Source: Edaphobacter aggregans
Lineage (GTDB): Bacteria; Acidobacteriota; Terriglobia; Terriglobales; Acidobacteriaceae
DNA length: 36,761 nucleotides
Direction: 5' to 3'
Assembly (NCBI GenBank): GCA_022736715.1
Contig: DZDJ01000029.1
Coordinates: 1 to 36,761, forward strand
The translations under genes and the position numbers were made by a program. This document shows, one piece after another, positions 30,825 to 32,930 of the stretch (position 1 is the first letter of the stretch; the number at the start of each line of letters is the position of its first letter). The notes beneath the pieces were generated by a model. It ran no database searches, was not told the origin of the DNA, and saw only the letters and a list, made by a program, of their open reading frames with translations.

Positions 30825-32930
30825 TTAGTCGCCCATTACCGGTTCTTCTTCAGTTTTGGCGGTCTTCGGAGCCGGGGCAATGCCGCCGAGCGAATCCAGA
30901 GGAATGAAGCCCTCCTGCGGCTTCTCGCCCAGAATATGCTCGCGATACATGCGGGCCATCTTGGCGTTTTCTGCATCCTGCTTGATCTTTGCATCGCGTG
31001 CGCGGATCTTTTCCTCGCGGGCATTCTTGGCGATGCCGCTCTTCTCAAAAGTATCGTTGGCCGCAGCATTCACATGCTCCTGGTTCAGCACCAGGTCATA
31101 CTTCTCCTGCTTCTCAATGCCGACCTTCTTGCCGCCAGCGAAGATTTCGTGGCGGCCATGCTCCTCATACCACTTGGTGAGCGTTGCCGTCATGTGCATC
31201 TTCTCGATAATGTTGCGCCAGCCGACGCCCGTGTTGTACGCGCAGAAGCTGATTTCGCCTTCCTGCGTCGCATACGGAATAATGCACTGCTCGGTGCGGC
31301 GGAAGTCGTAGTTGAACAGGTCCTGGAACCACATGGCGGAGATAAACAGGAAGTTCCAGCGGTCTGCACGGCGCTTCTCAATGTCGGCCAGGGTACGGTC
31401 GCCCGTCACCTTGCCATAATTGCGGCCCGTCGCGCCAAAGCACTTATCGAACTTCTGCAACAGGTCCACAATGCGGAAGTGCGTCGGGGCCTTGGACGGA
31501 TCGTAGTTGCGCAGCAGCGCCAGCGAAATGCCCAGGATCGACAGCAGCTTGCCGCGTGCGGCGTCGTTGATCTTCGCTACGTCCTTGGCCAGTTGCACCG
31601 CATCCACGAAGGCCGTTACCGGAACCGCTTCCTTGGTCTCCTTGTCGATCATCACCGCCATGCCGATGCCGCAGTTCGGGTGGCATCCGCAGGCGAGCTG
31701 CCCCCACTCGTGGTTCGGCCCGTGCACCAGGTCGGCCCAGTCGCTGAAGGTGGCCATGAAAGAGATCGGGAACCAGTCGCGCGTGCTTTTGCCCAGCCCC
31801 GTCTGCGTGCGGATGTCCTGCGCCAGGTGCGACATCGTATAGCGCTGCGCCGCGCGGCGCTCGTCCGAGATCGCCTCGTCGCGGCCGGTAAAGCTGACCG
31901 GCTGGAAGCTGAGGAAGTTGATCTTTTTCGGGTTGTCCATCGCGAACTCGATGATGCGGCCAACCTGCTCGTTGTTGATGCCGTTCACGATCGTCGTCAC
32001 CGGAACAATGTCCACACCCGCTTCGTGCAGGTTGTGGATCGCCTGCAGCTTCACGTCAAACGCGTTGCCCACCTTGCGGTGGCTGTTGGCGGCGTTGCCG
32101 ATACCATCAAACTGCAGGTACGCATAACGCAGGCCCGCTTCCGCAGCGGCCTTGCAGAACTCCTTGCTCTTGGCGAACTCAATGCCGTTCGTCGCCGCCT
32201 GCACCGAGTTGTAACCCACCTTGCGGGCATAGGCCACAGCGTCCAGGAAGTAGGGCGACAGCGTCGGCTCGCCACCGCTGAACTGCACACTCATCTGGCG
32301 GCGCGGCTTGATCTGGACCGCGTTGTCGAGCATCGTCTTGATCTCGTCCCACGTCAGCTCATGCACAAAGCCCACCTGGTTGGCATCCATAAAGCAGGGG
32401 TCGCACATCATGTTGCAGCGGTTGGTCAGGTCAATCGTCAGCACCGAACCGCGGCCATGCGTCACGGTGGAAGTACCGTGGTTGTGCAGCTTCTCGTCAT
32501 TGTGGGCGCGGATGTCGCGGCCCGGAAAGACGTCTTCCAGATGCTTCATCATGGCCGGGTCAATCGACATGACGTCTTCAAAATGGCCATGCTTCGGGCA
32601 GTCCTTCACCATCAGAATCTGGCCGTCCCGCTCAATGATCTGCGCCTTGATCTCGCCGACTTTCTCGTTCAGCAGGATTTCATGCGGCAGTTTGCCGTCG
32701 ATGATCTGCTGGCGGATCTCCGGAACGCACTTGGGACAAAGCGAGTCCGTGGTGCGCGGCCAGCCCAGCGGGGGCTTTTCCTTCTCGTAGCTCTTCAGCA
32801 GCGGCTTGTCCGACCACTTCGGGATGAAGGACTCATTCGGGCTGATACGGTTCACGCGCTCAAAAACTGCCCACGCGCCCTTTGCGGCCAGAGTAATCGA
32901 CTTCTCAAACAACTTCGCGGTTTTGGCCAT
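30825..32930 (-). CDS. radical SAM enzyme, Tes/Mss-like (membrane-spanning lipid synthase candidate)
   Basis: A 701-residue Cys-rich protein. An N-terminal rubredoxin-like site has CPKC (65-68) and CPKHG (111-115). The radical SAM core has Cys172-x3-Cys176-x2-Cys179 (TNRCNMMCDPCF) and FSGGEPTLSP (217-226). A further cluster motif is ACGCHPNCGIGM (413-424), and more Cys follow at the C-terminal side. The tail from about 630 is charged and helical. This architecture matches the MJ0619/tetraether synthase family, which joins lipid tails head to head through C-C bonds. Acidobacteria make membrane-spanning iso-diabolic acid, so such a role is plausible but inferred. AGGAG lies eight bases before the ATG. 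It is monocistronic. Confidence 0.78.
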   Translation of the reverse strand: MAKTAKLFEKSITLAAKGAWAVFERVNRISPNESFIPKWSDKPLLKSYEKEKPPLGWPRTTDSLCPKCVPEIRQQIIDGKLPHEILLNEKVGEIKAQIIERDGQILMVKDCPKHGHFEDVMSIDPAMMKHLEDVFPGRDIRAHNDEKLHNHGTSTVTHGRGSVLTIDLTNRCNMMCDPCFMDANQVGFVHELTWDEIKTMLDNAVQIKPRRQMSVQFSGGEPTLSPYFLDAVAYARKVGYNSVQAATNGIEFAKSKEFCKAAAEAGLRYAYLQFDGIGNAANSHRKVGNAFDVKLQAIHNLHEAGVDIVPVTTIVNGINNEQVGRIIEFAMDNPKKINFLSFQPVSFTGRDEAISDERRAAQRYTMSHLAQDIRTQTGLGKSTRDWFPISFMATFSDWADLVHGPNHEWGQLACGCHPNCGIGMAVMIDKETKEAVPVTAFVDAVQLAKDVAKINDAARGKLLSILGISLALLRNYDPSKAPTHFRIVDLLQKFDKCFGATGRNYGKVTGDRTLADIEKRRADRWNFLFISAMWFQDLFNYDFRRTEQCIIPYATQEGEISFCAYNTGVGWRNIIEKMHMTATLTKWYEEHGRHEIFAGGKKVGIEKQEKYDLVLNQEHVNAAANDTFEKSGIAKNAREEKIRARDAKIKQDAENAKMARMYREHILGEKPQEGFIPLDSLGGIAPAPKTAKTEEEPVMGD

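Follow-up and report, generated by a model that had tools for sequence, protein, structure and literature searches.

The brGDGTs, which are used as palaeothermometers, are presumed to be built from iso-diabolic acid, and the clade described here bears directly on the question of which enzyme forms this acid in subdivision 1 acidobacteria. A membrane-spanning lipid synthase, Mss, was reportedly described by Sahonero-Canavesi in 2022; its proposed reaction, in which fatty acids are coupled tail-to-tail, is like the one considered below. The best structural match to our protein is MJ0619, the GDGT-MAS or Tes of Methanocaldococcus jannaschii (7tol, 7tom), which uses a two-SAM mechanism with a sulphur-bound intermediate and also binds bacterial phosphatidic acid (PMC9433317). 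Its rubredoxin ligands are C9, C12, C33 and H36, its N-terminal auxiliary cluster is held by C73, C77, C80 and a histidine, and its C-terminal cluster carries the labile Met439, Tyr459 also being named (PMC9433317). The histidine is likely to be H83. Tes homologues are known candidates in acidobacteria: Zeng et al. (2022) proposed the Edaphobacter aggregans homologue together with others from the phylum, so that the iso-diabolic acid proposal for that homologue is already published (PMC8941075), and Halamka et al. made the same proposal for S. usitatus (PMC10087280).

The window, that is, the whole stretch of 36,761 nucleotides that was analysed, contains a real and deeply conserved gene for a Tes-like protein (Table 1). 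An earlier sequence-only reading had recognized this open reading frame without stating its strand, which is minus. A plus-strand frame of 781 codons (30690-33035) spans the entire gene; it was rejected as a gene, all homology being in the minus frame, and is probably open due to high third-position GC.

Table 1. Features of the Tes-like gene and its surroundings in the window
Feature	Coordinates	Strand	Basis or remark
Tes-like radical SAM protein, 'form A'	30825..32930	-	ORF from ATG to stop, 701 aa
Ribosome binding site AGGAG	32939..32943	-	sequence reading; plausible, ~10 nt upstream of start
N-terminal extension, residues 1-60	32751..32930	-	Tes homology begins at residue 61
Rubredoxin-like iron site C65, C68, C111, H114	32589..32738	-	equivalent to MJ0619 C9/C12/C33/H36; PF23545
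Place of lost N-terminal auxiliary [4Fe-4S], residues 145-160	32451..32498	-	LHNHGTSTVTHG instead of CPYDCGLCPNH
Radical SAM CX3CX2C: C172, C176, C179	32394..32417	-	alignment; PF04055
CGCHPNC, C414-G-C416-x3-C420	31671..31691	-	C420 probably binds the C-cluster; additional invariant Cys at C414 and C416
C-terminal catalytic cluster region M533 (=Met439), C549, Y553 (=Tyr459), C563	31242..31334	-	alignment
C-terminal extension, residues 581-701, 121 residues	30828..31190	-	beyond Tes homology, which ends at ~residue 580
13-bp hairpin, terminator-like without T-run	30774..30805	-	3' of gene; strong, z = -4.2
MutY-like DNA glycosylase	29593..30666	-	next gene downstream of Tes-like gene; PF00730

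The window protein is a distant member of the Tes superfamily. Its best NCBIfam match is Tes (NF045702, 328 bits), below the curated cut-off of 450 bits, which was passed by none of 12 named Acidobacteriaceae. The next family, the TrsS radical SAM (seleno)protein (NF045646), resembles it in the N-terminal and radical SAM parts; the score of 211 bits is lower than that for Tes and far under the TrsS cut-off of 490 bits. Pfam matches were to Radical_SAM (PF04055) and to the HMPTM zinc ribbon (PF23545, 49.5 bits). Among PDB sequences 7tol was matched at E=6e-63 and other radical SAM structures at 2e-6 or weaker, while Foldseek with an AlphaFold2 model returned 7tom (2e-20) and 7tol (1.5e-19), then MoaA (6.5e-5). 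The fold is the same as that of Tes/GDGT-MAS, with a TM score of 0.65 normalised to target length (7tom), although the model is of middling confidence (pLDDT only 66), lowest near the cluster regions. The Tes-like assignment made earlier from motifs is thereby confirmed, and the HMM and structure comparisons it had called for place no other radical SAM family ahead. A plasmid search returned distant radical SAM proteins only.

The metal sites were compared in an alignment of 157 distinct relatives and MJ0619. The window clade accounts for 125 members from Acidobacteriota (114 close and 11 more distant); 24 others, here called form B, are acidobacterial Tes homologues scoring above the NF045702 cut-off, and are the type closest to archaeal Tes. 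All three cysteine motif groups read from the sequence (CPxC...CPKHG, CxxxCxxC and CGCxxxC) are present, and their conservation shows that they did not arise by chance. In the clade, the rubredoxin-like CX2C...CX2H site is kept with one exception, at H114; C65 and C68 were equated with MJ0619 C9 and C12 by motif, the aligned MJ0619 stretch starting at residue 15. The radical SAM cysteines are invariant (125/125), as are C420, C549, C563, M533 and Y553 across the same 125 members, and the three cysteines of this second group, to judge from their conservation, would bind the C-terminal cluster. In contrast, the residues equivalent to MJ0619 C73/C77/C80/H83 are kept in 0 of the 125 window clade members and in 24/24 of form B. 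C414 shows nearly the reverse pattern (125/125 versus 2/24), while C416 is found in 125/125 and 20/24, respectively.

Because the N-terminal auxiliary ligands are missing throughout, we treat the window clade as distinct and predict three metal sites for its members, compared with four in Tes. The multi-cluster Tes layout suggested earlier thus holds for the rubredoxin-like, radical SAM and C-terminal sites and fails for the N-terminal auxiliary cluster. The candidacy of Tes homologues was already known; a description of this loss was not found in the accessible literature on Tes homologues, the original Mss paper being excepted from this statement. The loss poses the question of how the coupling chemistry obtains its electrons. 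For surveys it means that at least two clades, differing in predicted metal content, are pooled under acidobacterial 'Tes hits'.

Compared with MJ0619 (~32% identity), the window protein shares the fold, the rubredoxin-like and radical SAM sites, and the C-terminal cluster with its labile Met and Tyr; it differs in lacking the N-terminal auxiliary ligands, in the extra invariant C414, in its extensions of 60 aa at the N-terminus and 121 aa at the C-terminus, and in its expected substrate, a diacyl iso-C15 phospholipid. Form B belongs to the same superfamily and has the same catalytic residues, but it carries all N-cluster ligands, is mostly ~540-580 aa long and is ~32-36% identical to the window protein; some genomes hold both forms. 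The N-terminal extension includes a predicted helix at residues 3-28 (AF2, pLDDT 82-93). This helix is amphipathic, its hydrophobic moment lying at about the 95-99th percentile of its own protein for most start positions 1-17. A charged C-terminal tail of ~70 residues had been noted; it is indeed charged (27/65 of residues 606-670, with a charged helix at ~633-666 predicted by AF2 at low to moderate confidence), but the part past Tes homology is longer.

In the tree, which was made by a quick method, form B is separated from the window clade, with which two sequences of a further paralogue group, by a branch as long as 2.65 changes per column (SH-aLRT 100). Core identity is ~0.9 or more across 45 relatives. 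Within the window's family a clear copy is present in 19 of 24 relatives, one more has a fragment at a contig end, and four have no clear copy, one of these genomes being 99% complete. Phylum-wide, a Tes-model hit at 1e-40 was obtained in 117 of 199 genomes, and just 27 exceed the cut-off. Orthologues are found in E. aggregans DSM 19364 (90%) and E. modestus DSM 18101 (89%), and a window-type gene is also present in a two-chromosome genome (2.66 + 1.00 Mb) that we take to be Chloracidobacterium. It is the sole Tes-type gene of E. modestus and of the window genome. There is one full-length Tes-type gene in E. aggregans, and its product is 90% identical to the window protein; the homologue of Zeng et al. 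is therefore almost certainly the direct orthologue of the latter, with no substantive difference. That homologue likewise lacks the N-cluster ligands, on which the accessible text of the paper is silent (PMC8941075).

One sister family contains four genomes with the window form, six with form B (true Tes) and none with both, an either/or occurrence that fits interchangeable enzymes. In two genera of the window's own family both forms lie a few kilobases apart. In three genomes (G021:C58, G111:C24 and G158:C21; loci L171, L172 and L178) the window-type and true Tes genes are separated by ~3-6 kb, and in two of the three a sortilin/BNR-repeat protein sits between them.

We regard it as fairly likely that the window protein is a bacterial enzyme that couples lipids tail-to-tail by a Tes-like mechanism and converts iso-C15 phospholipid tails to iso-diabolic acid; in these bacteria the gene probably encodes the synthase of that acid. 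Window-type orthologues occur in the very strains measured as producers, E. aggregans DSM 19364 with 26.4% iso-diabolic acid and E. modestus DSM 18101 with 30.4% (PMC11354219), an observation that is not Mss-specific; Chloracidobacterium also produces this acid (PMC12816986). The link to iso-diabolic acid suggested in the sequence-only reading is supported by these orthologues. Because a single Tes-like gene is present in cultured strains whose content of the acid is 26-30%, the question is directly testable. Whether the clade is a dedicated acidobacterial iso-diabolic acid synthase, performing sp3-sp3 coupling on ester phospholipids in aerobically growing cells by means of three metal sites rather than four, and separate from archaeal Tes and Mss, is a proposal for which we see the chances as even.

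By the proposed mechanism, SAM would be cleaved at the C172/C176/C179 cluster to give a 5'-deoxyadenosyl radical, which would abstract a hydrogen from an iso-C15 acyl chain, in its terminal part, in a bacterial phospholipid. This chain would then be tethered to the C-terminal cluster (C420, C549, C563 and the labile M533) by a carbon-sulphur bond until another chain is activated with a second SAM and coupled to it, giving iso-diabolic acid with the glycerol ester kept. With the N-terminal auxiliary cluster missing, electrons would need to arrive either directly or by way of the rubredoxin-like site. The amphipathic helix of the N-terminal extension may keep the enzyme at the membrane. E. aggregans is a known maker of ether-linked brGDGT, and it has a DUF2229 protein, which we take to be of the PlsA/Ger kind. 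No such protein is present in the window genome, for which an ester-linked product is therefore expected. As a required pathway partner the DUF2229 protein was rejected, given its absence there and its presence in only 12/25 genomes searched.

The loss of the archaeal cluster, the score below the cut-off, the relatives without a clear copy and the lack of an adjoining lipid gene all count against lipid coupling. The most serious alternative, which we nevertheless consider unlikely, is that iso-diabolic acid is made by an Mss homologue elsewhere in the genome, and that the window protein serves to couple or modify a different lipid, or to methylate or bridge chains. Mss and Ger have been described as the bacterial route (PMC13274423). 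Thermotoga maritima makes diabolic acid (PMC8788747), yet in our control set it had no Tes-model match at E<=1e-20; its enzyme therefore lies beyond what that model covers at this threshold, and a route beyond the Tes model probably exists. The same result leaves the 'Mss' part of the label originally given to the window protein unsupported. However, the window clade was found in the named producers checked, and its form alternates with true Tes in one sister family.

A role in pterin or other small-molecule metabolism, recalling the former annotation of MJ0619, seems very improbable to us. The protein does have the N-terminal HMPTM zinc ribbon, but the PF23545 residues form the rubredoxin-like iron site in GDGT-MAS, for which pterin activity is uncorroborated (PMC9433317), and the lipid-enzyme residues are conserved in the window clade. 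We give equally little credence to a decayed Tes that has lost lipid coupling along with one cluster. All N-cluster ligands are missing, and E. aggregans and Acidicapsa carry a further paralogue in which the C-cluster ligands are gone too; decay is nevertheless hard to reconcile with the high core identity, the invariant catalytic residues and a near-universal occurrence in the family.

In this third paralogue (L133 of Acidicapsa dinghuensis and L134 of E. aggregans) neither auxiliary cluster has its ligands, and just the rubredoxin-like and radical SAM sites are retained; L134 is apparently truncated. Three distant Tes-like genes (G122:C89, G217:C101 and G233:C121) each contain one in-frame TGA and are possibly selenoproteins of the TrsS kind. 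Orthologues with 82-84% identity also occur in Rhodanobacteraceae-labelled contigs (L050 and L059), which are probably misbinned acidobacterial DNA.

Regarding the flanks, the gene's own ribosome binding site, claimed earlier, is plausible. The claimed terminator corresponds to a strong hairpin, although this was absent from the list of the terminator scan and a good T-run is missing. No conserved operon partner was found in the flanks of the relatives' loci, and no lipid gene adjoining the Tes-like gene was seen in the neighbour surveys, in one of which automatic ORF calling took some antisense frames, making its counts rough. The MutY-like gene was within the 6-kb flank at 10/80 loci and is thus not a conserved partner. 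Elsewhere in the window, the minus strand at 35483-36541 encodes a protein whose N-terminal part is DNA-binding-like and which also has HATPase and STAS-like DUF4325 domains.
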